Of a DNA stretch of 11,865 bases, positions 57 to 11,476 are shown piece after piece (position 1 is the stretch's first letter; the number at the start of each line of letters is the position of its first letter). The translations under genes were made by a program, and so were the position numbers. This DNA is from Pseudomonadota bacterium (GTDB lineage: Bacteria; Desulfobacterota; Syntrophia; Syntrophales; JADFWA01). The DNA lies in NCBI GenBank assembly GCA_015222855.1, contig JADFWA010000183.1, positions 1 through 11,865 on the forward strand, given 5' to 3'. Under the pieces are notes generated by a model, which was not told the origin of the DNA, ran no database searches, and saw nothing but the letters and a program-made list of their open reading frames with translations.

Positions 57-137
57 AACTTGAGGAGACTTTTTATGATACCATCAACATTGAGGTTTTA
101 AATAAGCAAATACTGATAAATTTGAATATTTTTATTC

Positions 138-190
138 TCTGCGTTTTCTGCGACCTCTGCGGTAAAAAAATATCAGACCTGAGTAGTTAC
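138..190. repeat. 9-base TCTGCG array and right end of a GTAACTACTCAG-type element
   Basis: Three consecutive 9-base words (TCTGCGTTT, TCTGCGACC, TCTGCGGTA) occupy 138-164. They are followed by CCTGAGTAGTTAC ending at 190. That terminus is the same right-hand inverted-repeat end that closes the elements at 6960, 9431 and 11459. No matching left end GTAACTACTC is visible in 1-137, so the element is either truncated or begins left of the window. Confidence 0.6.
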
Positions 191-1062: not shown

Positions 1063-1137
1063 GTGAAAGGCAAAAGGCTAAGGGCCAAAGGCGAAAGGTA
1101 AAGACCCTTAGCCCTTAACCTTTAGCCCTTAGCCCAA
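1063..1137. repeat. Fold-back 7-base array between fliP and fliQ
   Basis: The left arm is a run of purine-rich 7-base words (AAGGCAA, AAGGCTA, AGGGCCA, AAGGCGA, AAGGTAA). The right arm is a run of their reverse-complement type (CCCTTAG, CCCTTAA, CCTTTAG, CCCTTAG, CCC). The two arms could pair as an imperfect hairpin with stem of about 30 bases. There is no trailing U-tract, so it is not a classic intrinsic terminator. The same word family recurs at 2281-2320 and 6979-7015. Confidence 0.8.
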
Positions 1138-1152
1138 AGTGAGGGTATAAAC

Positions 1153-1422
1153 ATGACTACAGATTTGGTTATAAGTATAGCAAGCGAGACTATAAAGATA
1201 GCCCTGCTGGTTGCTGCTCCTATGCTTATTGTCGGTCTTGTCGTCGGCGTTGCAGTCAGTGTTTTCCAAGCGGTCACTCAGATTCAGGAGATGACATTGG
1301 TATTTGTTCCCAAGATCCTGGCCGTTATGTTGGCGCTTATAATTGCGGGCCCGTGGATGCTCAATGTTCTTTTGACATACACGCACAATCTCTTTTCCAA
1401 TATACCGATGTATGTCAAGTAG
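1153..1422 (+). CDS. fliQ: Flagellar type III export gate protein FliQ
   Basis: FliQ is the small subunit that wraps around FliP and FliR in the export gate. The product is 89 residues, the normal family size. It consists of two long hydrophobic hairpin segments (about residues 15-40 and 52-75) separated by the conserved QAVTQIQEMTLVFVPK loop, which is diagnostic of FliQ. The ATG at 1153 is preceded by GAGGG at 1141-1145, a reasonable ribosome site at 7-base spacing. The gene follows the fold-back array downstream of fliP and stops just before the next array, which leads into fliR. Confidence 0.96.
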   Translation: MTTDLVISIASETIKIALLVAAPMLIVGLVVGVAVSVFQAVTQIQEMTLVFVPKILAVMLALIIAGPWMLNVLLTYTHNLFSNIPMYVK

Positions 1423-1499
1423 TTTAGTTGGTTCGTTGGTTTAGTTGGTTCAACGAAACCAATGTAACCAACACAACCAATGAAACTAACTTAACCAAT
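1423..1499. repeat. Fold-back 9-base array between fliQ and fliR
   Basis: The left arm contains words such as TTTAGTTGG and TTCGTTGG. The right arm is a clear 9-base series (AAACCAATG, TAACCAACA, CAACCAATG, AAACTAACT, TAACCAATA) that complements it. The array begins directly after the fliQ stop codon and ends at the ATG of fliR. The 9-base period keeps reading frame, so the array is open in the fliR frame. A sister array lies at 6852-6924. Confidence 0.8.
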
Positions 1500-2276
1500 A
1501 TGACTATTCCCAACATTACGCCGGAACAGATAGAGCTTTTTTTACTCATATTTCTCCGGGTGAGCGCCATTGTGGTAACCCTTCCCATATTGGGAAACAG
1601 GACCGTTCCTGTCAGGGTAAAAGCCGGACTGTCATTCCTGATTGCATTTCTCATATTTCCGTTTGTTCACTTTGAGGTGCCGAAGGGCGATATCGCTGTA
1701 TTTCCTTTGATGTTCAGGATGGCAGGAGAGGTTCTGGTAGGAGTCATTATAGGCTTTACCGCCAGGTTGATCTTTGCGGGGATACAAATGGCCGGGCAGC
1801 TTGTGGGATTTCAAATGGGTTTTGGTATCGTTAATGTTGTTGATCCTGTGACCAGCGCGCAAATTTCCATCATAGCCCAGTTCAAGTATCTTATTGCCAT
1901 GTTAATATTTCTGGCGATAAATGGTCACCATGTGTTTTTGTATGCTATTTCCGAAAGTTATCGCATTTTGCCTCCACTTGGCTTTCATTTTTCGGGAGAA
2001 TTGATGGAGGCGATCTTTCTGTTTTCGAGGAACATGTTTATTGTCGCAGTCAAGGTGGGCGCTCCGATTATGGCGGTTCTGTTATTTACGAGCGTCGCGT
2101 TGGGTTTGATTGTCAGGACGGTTCCACAGGTAAACGTATTCATCGTCGGTTTCCCGCTGAAGATAGGGGTGGGTATGATAGGTATCGGGCTTGCCATGCC
2201 GATATTGCTGAGGGTGGTTGAAAAGATTTTCTCAAATCTGGAGGGAGAGGTTAACTTACTCCTGCAGCTTATGTGA
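1500..2276 (+). CDS. fliR: Flagellar type III export gate protein FliR
   Basis: FliR completes the FliPQR export gate and contacts FlhB. The product shows the family pattern of an N-terminal hydrophobic hairpin with LRVSAIVVTLPILGNRTVPV, a central GQLVGFQMGFGIVNVVDP signature, and C-terminal membrane segments including the RTVPQVNVFIVGFPLKIGVG region. Starting at the ATG at 1500 (MTIPNITPEQ) gives 258 residues, the usual size. The frame is open back to a TTG at 1428, which would add 24 residues encoded by the 9-base array (an N-x-T series). I regard this as unlikely but possible. No Shine-Dalgarno sequence stands before 1500 because the array occupies that space; coupling to fliQ translation is an alternative way to load ribosomes. 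Confidence 0.94.
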   Translation: MTIPNITPEQIELFLLIFLRVSAIVVTLPILGNRTVPVRVKAGLSFLIAFLIFPFVHFEVPKGDIAVFPLMFRMAGEVLVGVIIGFTARLIFAGIQMAGQLVGFQMGFGIVNVVDPVTSAQISIIAQFKYLIAMLIFLAINGHHVFLYAISESYRILPPLGFHFSGELMEAIFLFSRNMFIVAVKVGAPIMAVLLFTSVALGLIVRTVPQVNVFIVGFPLKIGVGMIGIGLAMPILLRVVEKIFSNLEGEVNLLLQLM

Positions 2277-2280
2277 GAGA

Positions 2281-2320
2281 AAGGTAAAAGGTTAAGGGTA
2301 AAAGATGAAAGGCAGAAGGG
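2281..2320. repeat. 7-base purine-rich array between fliR and flhB
   Basis: The words AAGGTAA, AAGGTTA, AGGGTAA, AAGATGA, AAGGCAG and AAGGG follow one another at a strict 7-base step. This is the same family as the left arm at 1063-1137, but here only one arm is present and no fold-back partner follows. Confidence 0.7.
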
Positions 2321-2379
2321 TTGTATGGTTTTTTGACGGAAGCGTCAGCAATATGGAAGAGGGGTTAGGAATTTAGCTC

Positions 2380-3450
2380 ATGGCTGAGGGTAATCAAGAC
2401 CAGGAAAAAACTGAACAACCAACACCTAAGCGAAGAGAGGAAGCGAAGAAGAAGGGGCAGGTTGCAAAGAGCCAGGAAGTGGCATCTGCGACGATCCTGC
2501 TTGTATGTCTGATCTTCTTCTATTTCAACGCAACCGGTATGTTCGAGCAGGTGTTGGATATGATGAGGTGGATGTTTCTGGAATCCGGAAGCATGACTGT
2601 TAATTCCGCCAATATCCAAGCGCTTATGGTAGGGTTTATATATAGGATGTTTGTTCTCCTTTTCCCGCTGTTTATGATTGTTGTTGCCGCGGGCATGATT
2701 GCCAATTTCCTTCAGGTCGGGTTCATGTTCTCCACGGAATCTATACAGCCCAAGCTGTCGAAGATCGATCCGATCAAGGGATTTCAGAAGTTTTTTTCTC
2801 TGAAAACCCTCGTTGAACTGGTAAAGAACATATTTAAGATATCCATTGTGGGATTTATCGCCTATTTGGTAATCAAGGGAGAGATAAGAGGACTGTTTCC
2901 CTTGATGGAGCAGAGTGTATGGGGGATCCTTTCCTTCATAGGTAGAGTTGTATTCAAGATAGTCTTTGTAACCTGCCTGGCGCTCATAGTCCTGGCAATC
3001 CTGGATTATGTTTATCAGAAATGGGAGCATGAAAAGGAGCTCAAGATGTCCAAGCAGGAGGTCAAGGATGAGTTCAAGCAGACAGAGGGAGACCCGCTTG
3101 TAAAGGCAAGAATAAGACGTCTCCAGAGGGAGGCGGCCAGACATAGAATGATGGCAAATGTTCCCACTGCCGATGTAGTCATTACCAACCCAACGCATAT
3201 TGCCGTGGCGCTGAAATATGATCAGGCGGAAATGTTTGCCCCCAAGGTTGTCGCCAAAGGGAGGGGTTTTATAGCTGAGAGGATAAAGGAAATTGCCAGG
3301 GAAAATGGTGTGACGATAGTGGAAAACAAACCGGTGGCACAGGTATTGTATAAGATAGTGGATGTGGACGAGATGATACCGGAAAATCTGTACAGGGCGG
3401 TTGCCGAGATACTGGCGTATGTATATGGTTTAAAAGCGAGCGAAGCGTAA
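2380..3450 (+). CDS. flhB: Flagellar export substrate-specificity switch FlhB
   Basis: FlhB is the inner-membrane protein that switches export from rod/hook subunits to filament subunits. The product has 356 residues in the expected order: a charged N-terminus (TEQPTPKRREEAKKKGQVAKS), four membrane segments between about residues 37 and 210, then a basic linker (KMSKQEVKDEFKQTEGDP) and the cytoplasmic domain. The autocleavage motif NPTH is at residues 270-273, with cleavage expected between N270 and P271 and followed by HIAVALKYD. All key residues are intact. The ATG at 2380 follows a purine-rich stretch (GAGGGGTTAGGA). It is separated from fliR by about 100 bases that include a 7-base array, instead of the close coupling usual for these genes. 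Confidence 0.96.
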   Translation: MAEGNQDQEKTEQPTPKRREEAKKKGQVAKSQEVASATILLVCLIFFYFNATGMFEQVLDMMRWMFLESGSMTVNSANIQALMVGFIYRMFVLLFPLFMIVVAAGMIANFLQVGFMFSTESIQPKLSKIDPIKGFQKFFSLKTLVELVKNIFKISIVGFIAYLVIKGEIRGLFPLMEQSVWGILSFIGRVVFKIVFVTCLALIVLAILDYVYQKWEHEKELKMSKQEVKDEFKQTEGDPLVKARIRRLQREAARHRMMANVPTADVVITNPTHIAVALKYDQAEMFAPKVVAKGRGFIAERIKEIARENGVTIVENKPVAQVLYKIVDVDEMIPENLYRAVAEILAYVYGLKASEA

Positions 3451-3480
3451 TTGTTTGATAACTAATGGGGTTTATAAATC

Positions 3481-3558
3481 CGAAATTCGAATATCGAAAA
3501 TCGTAAATCGAAAAATCGGATAACGAATTACGATTTCCAATTTCCGATTTCCGAATTC
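3481..3558. repeat. Fold-back 7-base CGAAAAT array between flhB and flhA
   Basis: Eleven words run at a nearly constant 7-base step: CGAAATT, CGAATAT, CGAAAAT, CGTAAAT, CGAAAAAT, CGGATAA, CGAATTA, CGATTTC, CAATTTC, CGATTTC, CGAATTC. Because the later words are of the reverse-complement type, the two halves can pair. The same family recurs at 9780-9834 and 10674-10856. It ends immediately before the AGAGG ribosome site of flhA at 3561-3565. Confidence 0.85.
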
Positions 3559-3576
3559 AAAGAGGTCTAAAAAAAT

Positions 3577-5649
3577 ATGGCTGAAGCTGATGTAAAAACC
3601 GGCGGTCTTCCGGCGTGGGCGAAAAATAGCAGCATTGCGATGGCTATAGGCATCGTCGGCATTCTCATAGTGATGATGATACCGCTTCCCACGCCTGTCC
3701 TCGATGTACTCCTTTCGTTTAATATTACATTTTCCGTCATCATAATATTGATGACGATGTATGTTCTGAGGCCGCTGGACTTTTCCGTTTTTCCCTCGAT
3801 ACTCCTTGTGGCCACTCTGTTTAGATTATCCCTGAATGTTGCCTCCACACGTCTGATTCTTCTCCATGGCAATGAAGGTACGGCGGCGGCAGGACAGGTC
3901 ATAAAGGCATTCGGCACCTTTGTAGTTGGGGGCAATTATGTAGTCGGTCTGGTTGTATTTTTGATAATTGTTCTAATTAATTTTATCGTAATAACCAAAG
4001 GCGCGACAAGGATAGCCGAGGTGTCGGCGAGGTTTACGCTCGATGCCATGCCCGGAAAGCAGATGAGCATTGATGCCGATCTCAATGCCGGACTTATCAC
4101 GGACTCGGAAGCACGTGGGCGGAGGCGAGATATCGAAAGAGAAGCGGATTTTTATGGCGCTATGGATGGCGCGAGCAAGTTTGTCAGGGGTGATGCGATT
4201 GCCGGGATTGTTATCACGTTGATAAATATTCTGGGTGGATTGATTATTGGTACCTTGCAGCAGGGTATGACGCTGGCGGATGCCGCGCGTAATTATACCC
4301 TCCTGACGGTGGGTGACGGTCTGGTGACACAGATTCCGGCCCTGGTTGTCGCGACCGGCGCCGGTATGCTTGTGACCAGGTCGACGGCATCTACGGACCT
4401 GGGCAAGGAAGTAGCGGGCCAGCTTTTCGTTCAACCGAGGGCCATTGGTACGGCGGCGGGGATTCTTTTAGTCTTCGGTTTGATTCCCGGTATGCCGAAG
4501 ATATCATTTATTACCATCGCGCTGGTTATGGGGGTCCTTGCTTATTCGCTGTTTCGGGCATCGAAAAAAATCGAAAAAAAGGAGGAAGTATTACCTCCGG
4601 CCACCCCGATGGAATCGGTGGAAACCCTTTTACCGCTGGATCTCCTGGAGCTTGAGGTGGGGTACGGCTTGATACCCCTTGTTGATGTGGAGCAGGGGGG
4701 CGAGCTGCTTCAGAGGATAAAGGCGTTGAGGAAGCAGCTGGCGCTTGAGATAGGGTTCGTGGTGCCGGCCATCCATATAAGGGACAATCTTCAGTTGAAA
4801 CCCAGCGAATATTCCATAATAATGAAAGGGGTTCAGGTAGCTAAAGGGGATTTGATGATAGGGCATTACCTTGCAATAATACCCGAGGACAGGAAAGTAA
4901 AGATAAGCGGGATAGAAACGAAAGAGCCGGCTTTCGGTTTGCCGGCGGTCTGGGTGTCTGAGAAGGAAAAGGAAGATGTTCAGGCGAAGGGTTATATCGT
5001 CGTTGATCCGGCAACCGTGATTACGACTCATCTGACGGAGGTTATTAAATCCAATGCCGATGAATTGCTGGGAAGGCAGGAGGTTCAATCATTGCTGGAT
5101 ACCCTGTCGATGAATTACCCGAAGGTTGTGGAGGAGCTTGTTCCCAAGGTCATTCCACTGGGCACGATTCAGAAGGTATTGCAAAGACTTCTCAGGGAGA
5201 GGGTTTCAATTCGCGATCTCTTGACTATCCTGGAGGCGCTGGCGGATTACGCGCCGATAACAAAAAATGTGGATATCCTGACCGGATATGCGAGGGAAGC
5301 CCTGTCCAGGACGATAACGAAACAGTATCAGGACGATGAGGAGAATATAACGGTGGCGATGCTTTCCCCCGAGATCGAAGATAAAATAGAGAGCGCCGTT
5401 CAACATACCGAATATGAATCCTATGTTTCACTGGACCCGAATTTCATACAGAAGGTTGTAAACAGTGTACAGAAATTTATTAACATCTTTACATCGAAGG
5501 GCGTTCAACCGGTTATTTTATGTTCTCCCAATACAAGGACTCATTTCCGTAAGATCATCGAGAGGTTTTTACCCAATGTCGCGGTTCTTTCCAGCAATGA
5601 GATAGCCCGCGAGGCAAACATTCAATCTCTGGGTATGGTGGAGTTGTAA
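3577..5649 (+). CDS. flhA: Flagellar export gate / proton-channel subunit FlhA
   Basis: FlhA forms the nonameric ring that couples proton flow to export and docks chaperone-substrate complexes. The 690-residue length is typical. The N-terminal half holds about eight membrane segments; it contains the FHIPEP-family signature RLSLNVASTRLIL from residue 83 and the conserved loop MDGASKFVRGDAIAG, in which D206 corresponds to the aspartate implicated in proton coupling in Salmonella (D208). A charged linker (KKIEKKEEVLPPATP) leads to the cytoplasmic domain, which includes HLTEVIKSNADELLGRQEVQ and the RERVSIRDLLTILEALADY region. The ATG at 3577 is preceded by AGAGG at 3561-3565. flhF starts one base after the stop, implying coupling. 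Confidence 0.97.
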   Translation: MAEADVKTGGLPAWAKNSSIAMAIGIVGILIVMMIPLPTPVLDVLLSFNITFSVIIILMTMYVLRPLDFSVFPSILLVATLFRLSLNVASTRLILLHGNEGTAAAGQVIKAFGTFVVGGNYVVGLVVFLIIVLINFIVITKGATRIAEVSARFTLDAMPGKQMSIDADLNAGLITDSEARGRRRDIEREADFYGAMDGASKFVRGDAIAGIVITLINILGGLIIGTLQQGMTLADAARNYTLLTVGDGLVTQIPALVVATGAGMLVTRSTASTDLGKEVAGQLFVQPRAIGTAAGILLVFGLIPGMPKISFITIALVMGVLAYSLFRASKKIEKKEEVLPPATPMESVETLLPLDLLELEVGYGLIPLVDVEQGGELLQRIKALRKQLALEIGFVVPAIHIRDNLQLKPSEYSIIMKGVQVAKGDLMIGHYLAIIPEDRKVKISGIETKEPAFGLPAVWVSEKEKEDVQAKGYIVVDPATVITTHLTEVIKSNADELLGRQEVQSLLDTLSMNYPKVVEELVPKVIPLGTIQKVLQRLLRERVSIRDLLTILEALADYAPITKNVDILTGYAREALSRTITKQYQDDEENITVAMLSPEIEDKIESAVQHTEYESYVSLDPNFIQKVVNSVQKFINIFTSKGVQPVILCSPNTRTHFRKIIERFLPNVAVLSSNEIAREANIQSLGMVEL

Positions 5650-5650
5650 G

Positions 5651-6760
5651 ATGCAGATCAGAAAATATGAGGCGTCAAATGTGCAGGAGGCATTGATAAA
5701 GATCAAAAATGATCTTGGTCCGGATGCTGCCATCCTTTCGACAAAGAGGGTAAGGAGTGGAAGGTATCCACTGGTTGAGGTGACCGCTGCCAGAGATAAT
5801 AATTATGACAGGACTAAACATCGTAAAGAAGAAACGAATCTTGATATTGCTTCTCTCAGGGGCGAGATAGATGATCTGAAGGCCCTTATGCTGGGTGTCA
5901 AGAATGGTGAATTGATCGAGTTAAGGGAAGCCCTCAATACCTTTTTTGATACAGTCGGTATGAGTAAAAAAGCCATGTATGGGGGTCAGTTGTCCAGGAT
6001 TTATTATTACCTCATCGCCCGGGGTATATCGAGACAGAGGGCATGCAGGTTAATAAACACGCTTAAAAATAATCTTTCTGCAGGAGGTGTAGGGGATTAT
6101 AATGCAATATTTAAATTTGTGGTGGGACTAATAACGAAATCTATTAGTGTTACTAATGGAACAAAGGTGAAAAGAGTTGTTGCCTTCGTTGGTCCTACCG
6201 GAGTGGGGAAGACGACTACAGTGGCAAAACTGGCGGCCTGCTTTACGCTGGAGAAAAAATTGAAGGTCGCTCTGATAACGGCGGATACTTGCAGGATAGC
6301 CGCGGCTGAACAGTTGAAGATATACGCAAAGATAATGGGTCTGCCGGTTGAAATAGTTTCCGAGAAAAAGGAATTTAAGCGGGCACTGAATAGATTTGCA
6401 GATAAAGATGTGATTCTGGTGGATACACCGGGGAAGAGCAGAAACGATAAAGATTATATGGAAAAACTGAGAGATTTTCTGGCCCTGGATATTCCGGTAG
6501 AGACCAGTTTGCTTTTGAGCCTGACATCAAGCCAGGAAAATATGCTGGACACGGCTGCAAGATTTGGGGTAATGAATTATAATAACATAATATTTACAAA
6601 ACTGGACGAGTGTGTCTGTTTCGGTTCAATCTACAATGTTATTGATCAGGTTGGCAAGCCGGTGGCATATATTACAAACGGGCAAAATGTCCCCCGGGAT
6701 ATAGAGAAGGCGGATCCGGCAAAGCTTGCGAGAACGATAATGGAGGATAGGCTGAATTGA
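5651..6760 (+). CDS. flhF: SRP-type GTPase FlhF (flagellar placement)
   Basis: FlhF is the signal-recognition-particle-like GTPase that sets the polar site of flagellum assembly. The 369-residue product starts with the typical QIRKYEASNVQEALIKIKNDLGPDAAILSTK B-region, then a charged linker, an N domain, and a G domain. Visible motifs are the P-loop GPTGVGKTT at residues 181-189, the SRP-GTPase insertion motif DTCRIAAAEQLKIYA, G3 as DTPGKS at 258-263 and G4 as TKLDE at 316-320. G3 departs from the DTAGR of Ffh/FtsY. The gene begins one base after flhA stops. A composite repeat element follows its stop by nine bases. Confidence 0.96.
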   Translation: MQIRKYEASNVQEALIKIKNDLGPDAAILSTKRVRSGRYPLVEVTAARDNNYDRTKHRKEETNLDIASLRGEIDDLKALMLGVKNGELIELREALNTFFDTVGMSKKAMYGGQLSRIYYYLIARGISRQRACRLINTLKNNLSAGGVGDYNAIFKFVVGLITKSISVTNGTKVKRVVAFVGPTGVGKTTTVAKLAACFTLEKKLKVALITADTCRIAAAEQLKIYAKIMGLPVEIVSEKKEFKRALNRFADKDVILVDTPGKSRNDKDYMEKLRDFLALDIPVETSLLLSLTSSQENMLDTAARFGVMNYNNIIFTKLDECVCFGSIYNVIDQVGKPVAYITNGQNVPRDIEKADPAKLARTIMEDRLN

Positions 6761-6789
6761 AAGACGGACGTAACTACTCGGGGATGTAG

Positions 6790-6809
6790 GGGCGTATAGC
6801 AATACGCCC
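6790..6809. repeat. Perfect 8-bp hairpin nested in element B
   Basis: GGGCGTAT at 6790-6797 and ATACGCCC at 6802-6809 pair perfectly around the loop AGCA. With its flanks (GTAG before, GTAC after) it resembles a widespread bacterial intergenic palindrome of the GTAGGGGCG...CGCCC type known to me from many genomes. It lacks a following T-run, so intrinsic termination is not indicated. Confidence 0.7.
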
Positions 6810-6851
6810 GTACCAAAGGCACAGAGGCACAAAGAAAAACAGAACAGTTTT

Positions 6852-6924
6852 ATTAGTTCAATTAGTTTCGTTTGTTTCATTGGTTAACCAAGAGAACTAA
6901 TAGAATCAATTAAACCAATAGAAC
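6852..6924. repeat. 9-base fold-back array inside element B
   Basis: Words at a 9-base step are AATTAGTTT, CGTTTGTTT, CATTGGTTA, then ACCAAGAGA, ACTAATAGA, ATCAATTAA, ACCAATAGA. The turn is the palindrome GGTTAACC at 6883-6890. The family is the same as the array at 1423-1499 before fliR. Confidence 0.75.
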
Positions 6925-6978
6925 ATATTTATTCTGTACTTTTGGTACCTGAGTAGTTACATCCGGACAAGATTTTTT

Positions 6979-7015
6979 CCTTTAGCCTTTAGCCTTTTGC
7001 CCTTAGCCTTTAGCC
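6979..7015. repeat. 7-base CCTTTAG array upstream of flhG
   Basis: CCTTTAG, CCTTTAG, CCTTTTG, CCCTTAG and CCTTTAG follow each other at exactly 7 bases from 6979. This is the right-arm orientation of the family seen at 1063-1137 and the opposite orientation to the array at 2281-2320. With element B it fills most of the 315-base gap between flhF and flhG; the remaining 60 bases carry the flhG ribosome site and nothing else recognisable. Confidence 0.75.
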
Positions 7016-7075
7016 AGGGCAGAGAAGGCATTACGATATATCAGACTGCGGAGTAAGAAAAAAGGAGTAAACGGT

Positions 7076-7924
7076 ATGGCAAAAACAGCTCAACAGGGAG
7101 ACCATGCTGCCGGTGATAATGTCAGGGTTATTGCGATCACCAGCGGCAAGGGGGGTGTCGGGAAAACACATATAGCCGCCAATCTTGCCTATGTTCTGTC
7201 AAAAATGAAAAAGAAGGTGTTGGTTCTCGATGCGGATGTGGGGCTGGCGAATATAGATATTATTCTGGGGCTCACTCCTGAATACAATTTACACCATGTC
7301 CTGAGCGGCGAGAAGACCATATCGGAAGTAGTTGTTCCTGGTCCCGGAGGCATCAAGATTCTGCCTTCAGCCTCAGGGATCCAGGAGATGGCGAATCTGT
7401 CAAAGGGTCAAAAGCTTACCCTGTTGGATGAAATGAATAGTATGAATGAAGACATGGATTTTATGTTAATTGATACGGCTGCGGGGATAGCGGGGAATGT
7501 TATGTATTTCAATATGGCAGCCAAGGAAATTATTGTCGTTGTTTCTCCCGAGCCGACATCGCTGACGGATGCCTATGCCTTGATCAAGGTCCTTTATAAT
7601 GCCTATGATGAAAAGAGGTTTATGGTGCTCGTAAACATGGTAAAGGATTCCGATGAGGCCGGAGAGGTTTACAGGAAACTGAGTAACGCAACGGAACATT
7701 TTCTTAATGTTTCTGTCGAGTATTTGGGCCACATCCTTCATGATGAATGTGTGCGAAAAGCGGTTGTTCAACAGAAGGCCCTGGTGGAAATTTATCCCTA
7801 TTCTCCCGTGAGCAAGTGCCTGTTTACGGTAGCAAAGAAGCTGTGCCGGGAGGAGCCGGAGAGTTACGAAGGTGGAAGCATGAAATTTTTCTGGAAAGCC
7901 ATTGTCGATAAAGATCGTGGATAA
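7076..7924 (+). CDS. flhG: MinD-family ATPase FlhG/FleN (flagellar number control)
   Basis: FlhG (FleN, YlxH) is a MinD/ParA-type ATPase that limits flagellar number and acts with FlhF. The 282-residue product has the deviant Walker A motif TSGKGGVGKTH at residues 22-32, with signature lysine K25 and P-loop lysine K30. It also has the switch region LDADVGLANIDIILGL and Walker B LIDTAAGIAGNV, followed by the family segment EPTSLTDAYALIKVL. The N-terminus before the P-loop is short and lacks the DQAxxLR activator motif of Bacillus-type FlhG, so it is closer to Pseudomonas FleN in layout. The ATG at 7076 has a strong ribosome site, AAAGGAG at 7061-7067. Its 3' end overlaps fliA. Confidence 0.95.
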   Translation: MAKTAQQGDHAAGDNVRVIAITSGKGGVGKTHIAANLAYVLSKMKKKVLVLDADVGLANIDIILGLTPEYNLHHVLSGEKTISEVVVPGPGGIKILPSASGIQEMANLSKGQKLTLLDEMNSMNEDMDFMLIDTAAGIAGNVMYFNMAAKEIIVVVSPEPTSLTDAYALIKVLYNAYDEKRFMVLVNMVKDSDEAGEVYRKLSNATEHFLNVSVEYLGHILHDECVRKAVVQQKALVEIYPYSPVSKCLFTVAKKLCREEPESYEGGSMKFFWKAIVDKDRG

Positions 7925-8627
7925 AAAAGAGCGTGATAAACTTATAATGGAATATGCCCCCCTCGTGAAGAATATAGTGGGGAGGTTTGCCGTAAAGGTG
8001 CCGCCACATATCGCAGGCAAAGATGACTTAATAAATGTCGGCATTATAGGTTTGATCTCGGCCATAGAGAAATTCGACAAAAGCAGGAATGTACAATTCG
8101 GAACTTATGCAAGATTCAGGATTAGAGGCGCTATACTGGATGAATTGAGAGCAAGGGATTGGGTGCCGAGATCTACCAGGAATAAAAGTGCAAAGCTGGA
8201 AAAGGCGTATTCGTCATTACAAAGGAAGTTAGGGAGACAACCCGATGAAGAAGAGGTATCCAGACATCTCGGTATAACTCTTGATGAATACTATAAGCTT
8301 CTTGATGAGGCAAAGGGTGTAACGCTCTTCAGCAGTGAGGATTTCTCCTTTGATCGTTGTGTAAAGTACGGTACTTACGATGTCATAGATACTTTTAATC
8401 GAAATGATCCCTTCTCCTTTTTCGCCAACAGTGAATTAAAGGTCATATTGAAAACAGCGATAGATTTCCTGCCTAAAAAGGAGAGGCTGGTCTTGTCGTT
8501 GTATTATTATGAAGAGTTGACGATGAAAGAGGTTGGGATGGTGATGAAACTGACAGAGTCGAGGGTCTGCCAGCTTCATTCCCAGGCGATACTGAGGTTG
8601 AGAGGGGCGCTGAAGGAGCTGGAATAG
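7902..8627 (+). CDS. fliA: Flagellar sigma factor FliA (sigma-28)
   Basis: FliA directs transcription of late flagellar and chemotaxis genes. The 241-residue product matches the class: region 2 at about residues 11-90 (DDLINVGIIGLISAIEKFD, then FGTYARFRIRGAILDELRARD, which binds the -10 element), region 3 at about 95-145, and region 4 at about 180-238 (LPKKERLVLSLYYYEELTMKEVG and the recognition helix TESRVCQLHSQAI). There is no region 1.1. I kept the TTG at 7902, which follows GGAAA and overlaps flhG by 23 bases. In-frame alternatives are GTG at 7917 and ATG at 7947, the latter cutting close to the conserved EYAPLV. The overlap points to translational coupling with FlhG. Confidence 0.94.
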   Translation: MSIKIVDKKERDKLIMEYAPLVKNIVGRFAVKVPPHIAGKDDLINVGIIGLISAIEKFDKSRNVQFGTYARFRIRGAILDELRARDWVPRSTRNKSAKLEKAYSSLQRKLGRQPDEEEVSRHLGITLDEYYKLLDEAKGVTLFSSEDFSFDRCVKYGTYDVIDTFNRNDPFSFFANSELKVILKTAIDFLPKKERLVLSLYYYEELTMKEVGMVMKLTESRVCQLHSQAILRLRGALKELE

Positions 8628-8631
8628 CTTA

Positions 8632-8718
8632 CAGTAGGCAGTAGGCGGTAAGCAGCAAATATCCATCGGTATCCAACTTTATACCTCTCCCTACTGATCC
8701 CTGACCCCCTGACCCCTG
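8632..8718. repeat. 7-base CAGTAGG fold-back array after fliA
   Basis: The left part reads CAGTAGG, CAGTAGG, CGGTAAG, CAGCAAA at a 7-base step. The right part (CTACTGA, TCCCTGA, CCCCCTGA, CCCCTG) is of the reverse-complement type, with about 30 bases between. It occupies nearly the whole gap between fliA and the FliL-like gene. No U-tract follows. Confidence 0.65.
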
Positions 8719-8741
8719 CGAACTGTTACAAGGTTGATCTC

Positions 8742-9266
8742 ATGGTAAGAAAGGTAGAACTTGATTTTTTAGAAATAGAAATAGGCGCTTTGAAAGAAGC
8801 GGGTATTATTAGAGAAGAGGTGCCGGCGGAACCGGAGAAAAGGAAGATATCCTTATGGATGTTGGTGTCTCTTTCTGTGTTTCTCTTGTTGTGTGTGACA
8901 GGAACATCTCTCTGGGTATACATAAAAATTCGAAGCGCGGACGTTTATAAAGAGGAAGTTTCTGTACTGGAGGGCAAGATTGAAAACTTTGATAATTTTA
9001 TCATTGGTCTGAGAGATGATCAAGGAAACTACAGGGTCTTGATCTGTGACATCTCCTTCGAATTGAATAAGGATGCGGAGATCTCGGGAAAGAGGGTGAA
9101 TGTAAGAAGGACTATCTATAAGGCGGTAATAAGGAAGAAAGTTGGACAGGTGAAGCCGGCCGAGGTCAGGGAGATATTAAAGAAGACAATCAGGTTTGAG
9201 TTGAACAATTTTCTTGGAGAAGAAATAGTAAAACGGGTGTACTTTGCCAGGTTTGTTTTATTGTAA
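8742..9266 (+). CDS. Divergent FliL-like basal-body membrane protein
   Basis: FliL-family proteins sit around the stator of the flagellar motor and influence torque and stability. The 174-residue product has a cytoplasmic N-terminus, one membrane segment at about residues 37-60, and an outer domain. That domain has the FliL pattern: a start like FDNFIIGLRDDQGNYRVLI, the beta segment ISFELNKD, an arginine-rich helix VRRTIYKAVIRKK, and the ending LNNFLGEEIVKRVYFARFVL, which parallels the VYFTEF ending of FliL. The segment between them is shortened. It could instead be a FliL-derived paralogue, since classic fliL usually lies next to fliM. The ATG at 8742 is preceded by AAGG at 8730-8733. It follows fliA after the 7-base array and stops two bases before element C. 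Confidence 0.7.
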   Translation: MVRKVELDFLEIEIGALKEAGIIREEVPAEPEKRKISLWMLVSLSVFLLLCVTGTSLWVYIKIRSADVYKEEVSVLEGKIENFDNFIIGLRDDQGNYRVLICDISFELNKDAEISGKRVNVRRTIYKAVIRKKVGQVKPAEVREILKKTIRFELNNFLGEEIVKRVYFARFVLL

Positions 9267-9268
9267 AG

Positions 9269-9431
9269 GTAACTATTCAGCCACCAAGACACGAAGTCAC
9301 TAATTGCCGCCCCGTTCCGATGCTGAATTCTTGATACTGGATGAGATTTCACCTGTAGCTAATCTTAGGTATCTAGCATCCAGTATCTAATTTCCCTTTG
9401 TGCCTTGGTGACTTGGTGGCTGAGTAGTTAC
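9269..9431. repeat. GTAACTACTCAG-type MITE-like element C
   Basis: Ends are GTAACTATTCAG (9269-9280) and CTGAGTAGTTAC (9420-9431), one base apart from perfect complements. The inverted match continues inward through 8-base CCACCAAG-type words on the left and TTGGTGAC, TTGGTGGC on the right, for about 30 bases in total. A further inner pair, GATACTGGATG at 9333-9343 and CATCCAGTATC at 9377-9387, is perfect over 11 bases. The element starts two bases after the FliL-like stop codon, and its right end lies 25 bases before the next start codon. Confidence 0.8.
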
Positions 9432-9456
9432 TATAACCGTTTGAGAGGATTGAAAA

Positions 9457-9777
9457 ATGGTAAAGAAATCAGTGTTTTTTATAGTTATCTTTGTTTTTGT
9501 CGTGGGTTTCCTTACTTGCAGTTATGCCCTTACTCCCGAGCAGGTTATTAAATTGAAAAAGGCGGGTGTGAGTGATCAGACCATCCAGATTATGTTACAA
9601 TTGGAAGAAAAAAGCTCCTTCGATTATTTTGGTGTAAGGGAGGTGAAGGACAAGGATGGTAATGTCTATATTATTTACTATACAGGCCGGCCATCCAAAA
9701 AACGTAGTACCGCTGATGAAGACAGGGAAAAGGCGTGGAAGATGTTAAATAATATTATAATTGACAGAAGGCAGTGA
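9457..9777 (+). CDS. Small secreted protein of unknown function
   Basis: I do not recognise a characterised family. The 106-residue product begins with a signal peptide: lysines at 3-4, hydrophobic core from about 6 to 20, likely cleavage after SYA at residue 24. The cysteine at 21 is not in a good lipobox, so a lipoprotein is unlikely. The mature N-terminus, LTPEQVIKLKKAGVSDQTIQ, looks like the short helical TPEQVIKLKKAGVSDxxI motif (SHOCT-like) found in various exported bacterial proteins. A short strand-rich segment (KDKDGNVYIIYYTGRP) and a basic helical tail follow. The ATG at 9457 has GAGAGGA at 9443-9449 upstream. Its place in the flagellar locus suggests, without proving, an envelope role linked to the motor. 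Confidence 0.75.
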   Translation: MVKKSVFFIVIFVFVVGFLTCSYALTPEQVIKLKKAGVSDQTIQIMLQLEEKSSFDYFGVREVKDKDGNVYIIYYTGRPSKKRSTADEDREKAWKMLNNIIIDRRQ

Positions 9778-9779
9778 AT

Positions 9780-9834
9780 ATCGGAAATCGAAATTCGGAA
9801 TTCGAATAACGTTTTACGATTTACGAATAACGGG
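9780..9834. repeat. 7-base CGAA array abutting the next start codon
   Basis: ATCGGAA, ATCGAAA, TTCGGAA, TTCGAAT, AACGTTT, TACGATT, TACGAAT and AACGGG follow one another at 7 bases, turning from one orientation to the complement near 9808. The array begins two bases after one stop codon (9777) and runs up to the ATG at 9835, filling the whole gap. It is the same family as 3481-3558. Confidence 0.8.
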
Positions 9835-10596
9835 ATGCGGGAAATGGATAGAGATGATATTTATAAGAAGCTGAAAAAAGAGTTCGAAGCTACCTTTATT
9901 GATGAGCTTATTCCCGGCATTCTCCATAACTTTGCCAATCCCTTGAATGGGATTATGGGGCGTTCCAAACTTTTGCAGAGAAGATTGGGGGAGAGCATTA
10001 AGAAAATTAATGAAAGGTTTCCTGAGATAGATAGCGAAATTATGGAGGATCACAAAAAACTTATTGATGATGTTGATTTAATTACAGATGAAACTGACAG
10101 ATTTTTAAACATGTTTCAGGTCGTCGCGGAAAAGTTCTATATAATCAGCAACACCAGTATGCAGAGAATAAATTTGTCCGACCTCATAGAGACAGAAATG
10201 AGGTTTTCTGAATTTTATCTGGATCTTAAACATCATGTAAAAAAGACAGTCAATCTTGACAGTGAACTTCCTGAGATTACAGGAGTACCTGCCTATTATT
10301 CGATCTGTCTGTCAACATTTATAAGACATTCGATGGATGCTATGAAAAATAGCCCCATAAAAGAATTCCTCATTTCTACAAGTTGTGATGATAGGTCTGT
10401 TTGTGTTAAAATTCAGGATACAGGGGCCAGTATTTCGGAGGATGAAAGAAAGTCATTGCTGAAAGACCCGCCGGTACCGGAGAATGCCTGCAGTGATTTG
10501 TTTTATGCCTTGTTGCTGTTGAAGAAATATGATGTTCGTTTTCAGGTATACCGTGAAGCTGGAATGAATGCTCTCTCTATAGAGGCACCATATTAG
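9835..10596 (+). CDS. Degenerate histidine-kinase-like protein (possible phosphotransferase)
   Basis: The 253-residue product has no membrane or sensor segment. After a short helical start comes an H-box-like motif, LHNFANPLNGIMGRSKLLQ, with H31; the usual acidic residue after the histidine is replaced by N32. A second long helix (about residues 62-100) would complete a dimeric four-helix bundle. The C-terminal part resembles a HATPase domain, but the N-box asparagine is replaced by H165 (IRHSMDAM), the G1 box reads DTGAS at 195-199 without the second glycine, and no GLGL-type G2 box is present. ATP binding is therefore doubtful. The layout (bundle plus degenerate ATPase) recalls phosphotransferases such as ChpT or Spo0B, but this is structural inference only. 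A second in-frame ATG lies at 9844; neither has a clear ribosome site. Confidence 0.65.
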   Translation: MREMDRDDIYKKLKKEFEATFIDELIPGILHNFANPLNGIMGRSKLLQRRLGESIKKINERFPEIDSEIMEDHKKLIDDVDLITDETDRFLNMFQVVAEKFYIISNTSMQRINLSDLIETEMRFSEFYLDLKHHVKKTVNLDSELPEITGVPAYYSICLSTFIRHSMDAMKNSPIKEFLISTSCDDRSVCVKIQDTGASISEDERKSLLKDPPVPENACSDLFYALLLLKKYDVRFQVYREAGMNALSIEAPY

Positions 10597-10673
10597 TCTG
10601 TTAGTTTGAAAATTCGAGTTTTCGGACAAAAAATTTTCGTTATATCAGGTAACATATTGTAATTGATTGTCAA

Positions 10674-10856
10674 ATCCGAATATCGAATATCGAAATCCGA
10701 AACAAGTTCGAATGACAAAAATACAAAATTCGAAACCACGATAAAATTGTACGTTTACCTTTGTAAAGAAAATGTGTGAGAGCAAATATGGTTTAGAGCA
10801 TTTGAACATTTGAATTTAGGATTTGTTTCGAATTTCGTGCTTCGTATTTCGAATTT
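10674..10856. repeat. Long CGAA-type fold-back in the 382-base gap
   Basis: The left arm has 7-base words ATCCGAA, TATCGAA, TATCGAA, ATCCGAA from 10674, continuing AACAAGTTCGAATGAC. The right arm (TTTCGAATTTCGTGCTTCG from 10826, then TATTTCGAATTT, preceded by ATTTGAACATTTGAATTT) is largely its reverse complement over about 60 bases, with a loop of roughly 60 bases. In the rest of the gap, 10597-10673 holds only a 7-base inverted pair, GAAAATT/AATTTTC (10608-10638). 10857-10978 holds a GC-rich stretch near 10901-10920 and the promoter/ribosome-site region of the next gene. No coding frame is supported in the gap. Confidence 0.65.
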
Positions 10857-10926
10857 AAGAATAATTGGTTAATAATCCCCAAAAAACTTTGACCTGCTTA
10901 GTTCCGGCTTGTCCGGGTTAAAGGGT

Positions 10927-10954
10927 TAAAGAAATTCGGTTGTTATGACGATTA
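10927..10954 (+). promoter_or_regulatory. Weak candidate sigma-28 promoter
   Basis: TAAAG at 10927-10931 and GACGATTA at 10947-10954 resemble the FliA-dependent elements TAAA and GCCGATAA; six of eight -10 bases match, and the spacing is one base longer than ideal. Transcription would start close to 10961, right at the ribosome site AAGGGGGTGA (10961-10970), leaving a very short leader. fliA being in the same locus makes it worth noting. Confidence 0.25.
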
Positions 10955-10978
10955 TCTAATTAAGGGGGTGAAAGAATC

Positions 10979-11302: not shown

Positions 11303-11303
11303 T

Positions 11304-11459
11304 GTAACTACTCAGCCACAAAGTCACCAAGACACAAAGTGTAGAAATTAATTATAATTTTCAATAATCTCCGGGAATTTTTGTTAACCAAATGCCTCTT
11401 GTTATCATAAATTATTATATAATTTTAGTGACTTCGTGTCTTAGTGGCTGAGTAGTTAC
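11304..11459. repeat. GTAACTACTCAG-type MITE-like element D
   Basis: Perfect 12-base ends GTAACTACTCAG (11304-11315) and CTGAGTAGTTAC (11448-11459) are followed inward by 8-base words (CCACAAAG, TCACCAAG, ACACAAAG) on the left and the complementary GTGACTTCGTGTCTTAGTGG on the right, for about 32 paired bases. The centre is AT-rich, with short inverted stretches around ATTATAATTTT. It begins one base after a stop codon and ends 17 bases before the next ATG. No coding frame and no clear target-site duplication. Confidence 0.82.
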
Positions 11460-11476
11460 GGTTTGAGAATATTAAT

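Follow-up and report, generated by a model that had tools for sequence, protein, structure and literature searches.

Results

Word arrays in the gaps of a flagellar gene cluster

The DNA considered here (the window) is a stretch of 11,865 nucleotides, contig JADFWA010000183.1 (C86) of assembly GCA_015222855.1, from a genome of the Syntrophales that comprises 1.90 Mb in 423 contigs and is 80.6% complete. Its genes are, in order, fliP, fliQ, fliR, flhB, flhA, flhF, flhG, fliA and a gene for a FliL-domain protein, followed by four further genes without a Pfam match, the last of which is truncated by the window end; fliR, flhA and flhF stood outside the Pfam run and are presumably the genes as which an earlier note on this DNA names them. 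The gaps between these genes harbor tandem arrays of 7-, 8- or 9-base words, many of them facing a second array in opposite orientation and thereby giving the appearance of a fold-back (Table 1). In the 1,919 bases of these gaps, our detector found 14 arrays with periods of 7-9, as against a mean of 0.19 and a maximum of 2 in 300 first-order Markov simulations, and none in the 9,968 gene bases of the window; a further 9-base array (1423-1499) was missed by the detector and picked up by Tandem Repeats Finder (TRF). The earlier note had reported such arrays, each family with a period of its own, and they indeed lie at the junctions and have the periods it named, just as the tightly coupled junctions flhA/flhF (1 base) and flhG/fliA (overlap) are free of them. 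Its statement that most arrays reverse into their complement needs qualification: fold-backs are common, but 2280-2312 and 6979-7015 are single arms, and in 8632-8716 CAGTAGG faces mainly a different word, CCCTGACC, along with one CCCTACTG.

The same periods pervade the genome. In a sample of 61 contigs including the window (275,959 bases, 56,248 of them N; 24,745 intergenic), the recurrence of 5-mers in intergenic DNA exceeded that in dinucleotide shuffles 11.0-fold at lag 7, 3.7-fold at lag 8 and 5.1-fold at lag 9, with harmonics at 14, 16, 18, 21, 27 and 28, while lags 5, 6 and 10-13 were hardly or not enriched (0.7 to 1.4-fold). At a low threshold, the sample held 52, 12 and 9 arrays of period 7, 8 and 9, where 0.2, 0.4 and 0.5 were expected. 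The periods which the earlier note had proposed to look for genome-wide are thus, in this sample, well above chance. Two word families illustrate this: the AARGGYN pattern occurs 251 times as against twice for its control, and GCCTTTAGCC 86 times as against 9 for the reversed control. At a stricter threshold, no array was found in 20 of the 37 contigs of the sample that have over 1,500 readable bases; the arrays are therefore unevenly spread along the genome. In one other genome (G096) it is the reversed control pattern that occurs 72 times, so that a family reading GGRAANY is present there.

Variation is largely confined to set positions of the word

The AARGGYN family allowed a closer look at how words vary. 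Family words were collected from 81 contigs, 20 of which had been selected for holding a pattern hit. Across 380 words in 71 arms, four positions are 94-99% fixed (first A 358, second A 361, the two G 376 and 371), the third is A or G in 377 words (A 237, G 140, T 3), the sixth is a pyrimidine in 358 (C 232, T 126, A 13, G 9), and the seventh is free (T 197, A 111, G 52, C 20). The third site varies independently of the sixth and seventh, which depend on each other (p = 0.0007). The drift within a fixed period that the earlier note described is therefore real, but it is not free: in this genome it is largely limited to certain word positions. A comparison of congeneric orthologues points in the same direction, with 113 of 630 sites differing in the phases that are invariant inside an array and 81 of 173 in the variable phases.

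Several points weigh against taking this pattern at face value. Arms were defined by five of six matches, which biases them toward the consensus, and part of the contigs had been selected. The orthologue site counts are non-independent, as they include both directions and shared loci, and alignment favors matching cores. Moreover, in contigs labelled as viral, 302 words chosen by their AA and GG positions alone are looser, with a purine at the third position in 269 (A 161, G 108, T 20, C 13) and a pyrimidine at the sixth in 203 (C 113, T 90, G 57, A 42). A search of G181 and G070 that left both sites free still gave, by eye and among the matches listed, mostly purine and pyrimidine there.

Could the arrays be ordinary, unconstrained heptamer repeats that are randomly lost and regained by slippage? 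Perfect arrays and copy-number differences between relatives would be expected of such repeats, and in most genomes heptamers outnumber other long repeats, a fact ascribed to polymerase slippage (Mrazek et al., 2007, as cited in PMC4679880). However, under neutral decay AA and GG should have eroded along with the widely varying R, Y and N, nor would such decay produce the single polarity in all gap types described below, and we regard purely neutral slippage as improbable. Fixed and free phases are hard to derive from the neutral decay of a uniform array and suggest that each word is recognized. G-quadruplex formation was considered as a common function and rejected: a run of at least three G is not present in every word, as the third position is G in only 140 of the 380 AARGGYN words, and several families, among them the TTNCGNN and CACNAAGN words, have no such run.

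Arrays obey one polarity in all gap types

Where two arms face each other, the G-type words almost invariably stand on the left and the C-type words on the right. For neighboring runs of family words within 200 bases, counted in the same 81 contigs, three families of this genome gave 26, 3 and 9 G-C arrangements and no C-G arrangement (38:0), with three same-type neighboring runs; by G-C skew, the ratio over the families and genomes analyzed is 52:4. Among 535 distinct gaps of at least 30 bases pooled from relatives, pure G-C pairs occupy 24 tandem, 4 divergent and 4 convergent gaps, and pure C-G pairs none. Solo arms follow suit, with 28 of 40 G arms in the left half of the gap and 39 of 46 C arms in the right half (67 of 86 on the expected side). 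The viral-labelled contigs, with 80 loci, show 22 G-C and 3 C-G pairs, two of the latter being the same sequence, and 45 of 70 solo arms pointing inward.

The rule is not strict. Three complex gaps among the 535 contain a C-to-G step, 3 of the 25 facing pairs in the viral-labelled contigs are C-G, and in the divergent gaps of these contigs only 4 of 12 solo arms point inward. The relative G001 was retained in these counts despite the uneven array density among its contigs: its flagellar contig (L084) carries 14 array clusters in 20 kb and ten other sampled contigs (L220-L229) carry 2, which may reflect mixed binning or a clustering of arrays.

What could impose one polarity? Descent could explain it for the copies of one family, less easily for unlike families. 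Avoidance of Shine-Dalgarno-like G-words before start codons was rejected as the sole cause, since convergent gaps, which lack a start codon, obey as well; their facing pairs are 4 G-C and no pure C-G, with 3 further G-C pairs in other loci that may include near-copies, and the numbers are small. Pairing of the fold-back was likewise discarded, as arms of unlike words keep the polarity, in one case (L249, a convergent gap) flanking what by eye resembles a terminator hairpin.

Facing AARGGYN arms do not look like mirror copies

The earlier note attributed the fold-backs to template switching, whereby an array grows, the nascent strand turns around and is extended in reverse with itself or the sister strand as template, and the words then drift. 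Random turn-around would yield both polarities, and the single polarity (38:0; 52:4) therefore counts against it. A more direct argument comes from 23 AARGGYN pairs, in which the duplex energy between the two facing arms (-38.6) is better than that of within-arm word shuffles (-36.5, p = 0.003) but does not surpass that of re-paired arms (-39.0, p = 0.68), and the best mirror score behaves alike (p = 0.010 and 0.28, respectively). The tests had high power, detecting simulated mirror copies in 8 of 8 runs with up to 70% of the variable sites redrawn, in 7 of 8 at 80% and in 2 of 8 at 90%; an earlier mirror test with few offsets had given p = 0.088 against word shuffles for three sites together. 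In addition, roughly a quarter of facing pairs consist of unlike words: word likeness is below 0.7 in 25 of 65, and inspection by eye assigns at least 8 of these to a single family read in a different phase or period, the score being set to 0 for differing periods and thus undercounting like arms. The arms of AARGGYN pairs, then, do not look like mirror copies of each other.

Some observations nevertheless speak for a turn-around and against arms that are simply independent. Two arms that face each other belong to one family more often than they do after re-pairing (p < 0.01 in three sets of 33, 18 and 14 pairs), so that independence alone is insufficient; four of six window stretches fold well as RNA (z <= -3.4, with 0.0 and -0.7 in the other two); and the shuffle tests imply some word order that slightly aids pairing, which we interpret as an end effect common to all elements. 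Adjacent words are also weakly alike (p = 0.012 at lag 1, stemming from the Y site; nothing at lags 2 and 3). On balance, turn-around copying is largely refuted for AARGGYN, and as a general account of the arrays we judge it very improbable.

Turnover at fixed junctions

The 20 relatives used for comparison have the same gene order wherever their contigs cover the region, and nine loci were inspected as sequences. The flhA/flhF spacing is -20 to 4 bases in all 21 genomes. At the other junctions, the relatives have a gap of a few bases, non-repetitive sequence, or an array whose words vary with the species; a comparison at identical junctions had been proposed in the earlier note. The fliP/fliQ gap, for example, holds AARGGYN words in this genome, GTTCAGT in G003 and GTCAGAA in G001, and the AT-rich 7-base fold-back between flhB and flhA corresponds to four bases in G003.

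Four congeneric species, with DNA about 80-92% identical (G008, G040, G058, G026), resolve smaller steps. At one junction all four carry arrays, of AAAGGCT in G008 and G040, ACAGGCT in G058, where both arms carry the change, and GGCTTAA in G026. Another array has 9 copies in G026 and 3 in G040, and where G058 and G026 have a fold-back in common, G008 has a short solo arm. One region is present twice in G181; the copies, with 93.6% identity over 611 bases, have 15 and 13 words in the left arm, with the order unchanged. Close copies thus differ by whole words while keeping their order, and the earlier note's exclusion of simple slippage went too far.

Two side observations come from the relatives. 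The gene between two array-bearing junctions (L264 and L272 as against L268 and L252) matches within G008/G040 and within G026/G058 but never across, whereas its neighbor matches in all four species; a gene exchange between arrays is possible. The palindrome TTTTTTGACGGAAGCGTCAGC, of the type TTGACG-N-CGTCA, lies 5' of flhB (2329-2349) and is kept in seven of eight relatives inspected (G003, G018, G001 with one change, G034, G058, G008 and G026; none in G015), with the rest of the fliR/flhB gap replaced; it is likely to be a regulatory site.

A dispersed element adds a second layer

Part of the arrays belong to a larger unit. The terminus GTAACTACTCAG occurs 76 times in this genome as against once for its control, and bounds three elements in the window (6770-6960, 9269-9431 and 11304-11459). 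Such elements mostly measure 140-240 bp, and eight inward-facing terminus pairs of 54-237 bp were found in the loci analyzed. They contain CACNAAGN words of period 8, and some copies add a GTAGGGGCG hairpin and a 9-base fold-back; by eye, six copies (L180, L166, L150, L185, L067, L187) have inner sequence or word order in common with 6770-6960. The hairpin GTAGGGGCGTATAGCAATACGCCC (window 6786-6809) recurs at the same position in L166 and L150. The shared terminus and inner sequence make the CACCAAG words and the 9-base fold-back between flhF and flhG one nested element family. Hence, while the presence of several families with fixed periods stands, the earlier note's view of them as unrelated does not hold for the CACCAAG arrays and the fold-back 6846-6924. 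Of 60 genomes searched, 16 including this one contain GTAACTACTCAG, ten with at least three copies and six with one or two, as controls also show.

Miniature inverted-repeat transposable elements (MITEs) are short and dispersed and have inverted termini; repetitive extragenic palindromic (REP) sequences and bacterial interspersed mosaic elements (BIMEs) are palindromes with a GTAG tag. The GTAACTACTCAG element resembles MITEs in being short, gene-free as far as found, bounded by inverted termini and dispersed in both orientations. It differs in its word arrays inside the ends and in that neither a transposase partner nor a regular target duplication was found: a 6-base repeat flanks one of eight elements (L159, by eye), and no inward terminus pair 0.7-5 kb apart, as an autonomous partner would provide, was seen by eye among the places listed for this incomplete genome. 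A plasmid search with the element returned one partial match (21% covered, E = 0.4).

Might all arrays be the arms of such non-autonomous mobile palindromes, MITE- or REP-like, inserted as units? The GTAACTACTCAG element, with its 76 termini, eight inward pairs and shared inner sequence, fits this well. The AARGGYN arms do not, as they share almost no word order (nearest-neighbor score for 65 arms 4.34, versus 4.14, sd 0.08, when shuffled; a single pair stands out) and by eye have ragged ends. The rarity of target duplications, the lack of a distant terminus pair among the places listed, and the fact that no Y1 transposase was found in G015 despite nine array-pattern hits also argue against it. 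As an explanation of all arrays we therefore consider mobile palindromes unlikely.

Candidate machinery

The geometry of the arrays evokes telomeres: broken 3' ends could be extended with degenerate G-strand words off a short RNA template, in the fashion of DRT10 or telomerase, and then be joined head-to-head. The polarity, the independence of the arms, the partly unlike sides, the period of 7-9 and the two-letter sites, which are largely all-purine or all-pyrimidine, would fit, and a bacterial reverse transcriptase that produces tandem-repeat DNA has been described (PMC12632851). Yet there was no RVT_1 match in G000, G008, G026, G031 and G040, which all have the array pattern and three of which are 100% complete, Ku occurs in 1 of 60 genomes, and arrays at orthologous positions are passed on by descent, with differences of whole words; we find this reading barely credible. 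Reverse transcriptase, Ku and Y1 transposase were also considered as correlates of the arrays and discarded, the first for the lack of a match in the five genomes named, where divergent enzymes could escape the Pfam profile, the second for its rarity, and the third because it is found in 45 of 60 genomes (G000 has three PF01797 matches) but not in the array-bearing G015. Their distribution argues against templated break healing and against mobility driven by REP-associated tyrosine transposases (RAYT), within the limits that enzymes may be divergent and arrays may outlive their maker.

Table 1. Repeat features of the window, with word type, period and RNA folding score
Location	Position	Strand	Description	Period	RNA fold z
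Upstream of fliP	135-190	.	TCTCTGCG-type words; solo CTGAGTAGTTAC terminus 179-190; outside 1063-10856	9	
fliP/fliQ gap	1066-1135	.	Fold-back; AARGGYN words left (1066-1102), NRCCYTT words right (1105-1135)	7	-3.42
fliQ/fliR gap	1422-1499	.	Fold-back; TTNNRTTRG / CYAAYNNAA-type words	9	-4.77
fliR/flhB gap	2280-2312	+	Lone G-type arm, AARGGYN-type words, immediately 3' of fliR stop	7	
flhB/flhA gap	3476-3558	.	Fold-back; AT-rich words with TCG core	7	0.0
flhF/flhG gap	6770-6960	.	MITE-like composite: GTAACTACTC terminus, GTAGGGGCG hairpin, CACARAGG words, 9-base word fold-back, CTGAGTAGTTAC terminus		
Within 6770-6960	6846-6924	.	Inner fold-back; TTNNATTRG / CYAATNNAA-type words	9	-4.37
flhF/flhG gap	6979-7015	-	Lone C-type arm, CCTTTAG words	7	
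fliA/FliL gap	8632-8716	.	Facing arms; CAGTAGG (8632-8655), CCCTACTG then CCCTGACC (8689-8716)	7; 7/8 in 8699-8716	-0.70
FliL/next gene gap	9269-9431	.	MITE-like element, GTAACTATTCAG ... CTGAGTAGTTAC; CACNAAGN words within ends; central GATACTGGATG fold-back	8	
Gap 9778-9834	9780-9832	.	Fold-back; TTNCGNN-type words	7	
Gap 10597-10978	10677-10856	.	CGAATAT / TTTCGAA-type words at both ends (10677-10702, 10826-10856)	7	
Gap 11303-11476	11304-11459	.	MITE-like element; complete GTAACTACTCAG termini, CACNAAGN words; outside 1063-10856	8	-4.98 (11304-11453)

Two further details of the window may be added. The longest fliR frame would begin within an array (TTG 1428), and the probable true start is ATG 1500, just past it. 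A short palindromic repeat, TTCCGGCTTGTCCGGGTTA, lies at 10902-10920, and a near form of it stands beside arrays in G003 (L082). An Rfam scan of the window gave zero matches.

Discussion

What do the arrays represent? We hold it somewhat more probable than its negation that they form two layers, simple word arrays and a MITE-like element, within a known but little-studied class of repeats. The first layer would consist of simple arrays, mostly AARGGYN, that gain and lose whole words by slippage-like events and, at a given junction, disappear and give way to others from one species to another, the core of the word staying fixed and set positions varying. The two facing arms of a gap would act as separate arrays, and the look of a fold-back would follow from the polarity rule, with G-type words running inward from the genes on either side. 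The core may be maintained by a factor that binds DNA or RNA and reads the word sequence-specifically, or else by a requirement for transcript arms that pair, with orientation held under the same constraint; against this it must be said that neither a reader protein nor a function was found. In the second layer, the GTAACTACTCAG element, with CACNAAGN words in its arms and in some copies the 9-base fold-back, would disperse as a unit. The takeover of a gap by a new family likewise belongs to the conjectural part of this scenario. What the data themselves show are the periods, the polarity, facing arms that lack mirror copying, variation by word position, length differences of whole words, differing families at one junction, and the dispersal of the terminus.

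Known repeats place the arrays in a broader context. Cyanobacterial short tandemly repeated repetitive (STRR) sequences are heptameric tandem repeats located between genes, and the kinship to them that the earlier note proposed is supported at the level of this general likeness. The closest precedent is a family of inward-facing, G-quadruplex-forming heptamers, GGGAATC or GGGANTN in Xanthomonas and GGGGA(C/T)T in Nostoc, which are mostly intergenic (Rehm et al., 2015; PMC4692102). In Xcc and Xac of Xanthomonas, where 186 and 183 repeats were found, 70 and 75 cases of convergent facing pairs, respectively, are described, and the G strand adjoins the end of an open reading frame on the coding strand, or lies upstream of one on the other strand, a preference shared by Nostoc. 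The arrays described here are of the same kind, being tandem words of constant length that combine a fixed core with free positions and lie mostly between genes, in convergent facing pairs. They differ in that one genome holds many families with periods 7, 8 and 9, many words lack a run of three G, and some arms are unlike. In Geobacter metallireducens, a delta-proteobacterium, tandem octamers with degenerate ends (GTTGCTYN, TCTCCGTS[Y]) are paired on opposite strands at variable distance and were proposed as sites of global regulators (IHF/HU), and a heptamer family GGGACCG occurs in 49 places (Aklujkar et al., 2009; PMC2700814); there, however, a site has three or four words, and the words are others. 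GTTGCTC/GTTACTG words are present in our relative G001. Marine Beggiatoaceae carry TAACTGA in 169 direct-repeat sets and one indirect set, mostly just upstream of start codons (MacGregor, 2015; PMC4679880), which resemble our arrays as intergenic heptamers scattered across phyla without an evident mechanism, but represent one word, with related heptamers seldom repeated. In the open literature searched, titles and abstract openings yielded no paper that deals with AARGGYN arrays or with a polarity common to many families. What this study adds is that one genome holds many families, that the rule applies in three gap types and that some facing arms are unlike, together with tests for mirror copying and for the independence of words.

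A bolder scenario, which we rate as a very long shot, is that bacterial genes are bounded by outward-growing word arrays, with the G-strand of any word family leading away from the coding sequence on both sides. A process that is degenerate by design, with a fixed core, a purine, a pyrimidine and a free site, would write the words anew in each gap rather than copy an existing array, as a gene-edge analogue of telomere repeat addition carried out by an enzyme not recognizable as a reverse transcriptase.

Several bacterial groups are known to carry heptameric repeats, for which these accounts convey no accepted origin or role (PMC4692102, PMC4679880). Three claims can be examined separately, whichever genome is chosen: that a single polarity holds in every gap type and in many families, that facing arms are no mirror copies of each other, and that variation is limited to set positions. 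Jointly, they argue against slippage alone as well as against copying by turn-around, and they direct attention to a factor reading or writing the word, which can be searched for. For genomes of this kind, repeat-filled intergenic gaps call for caution in the identification of promoters, small RNAs and terminators.

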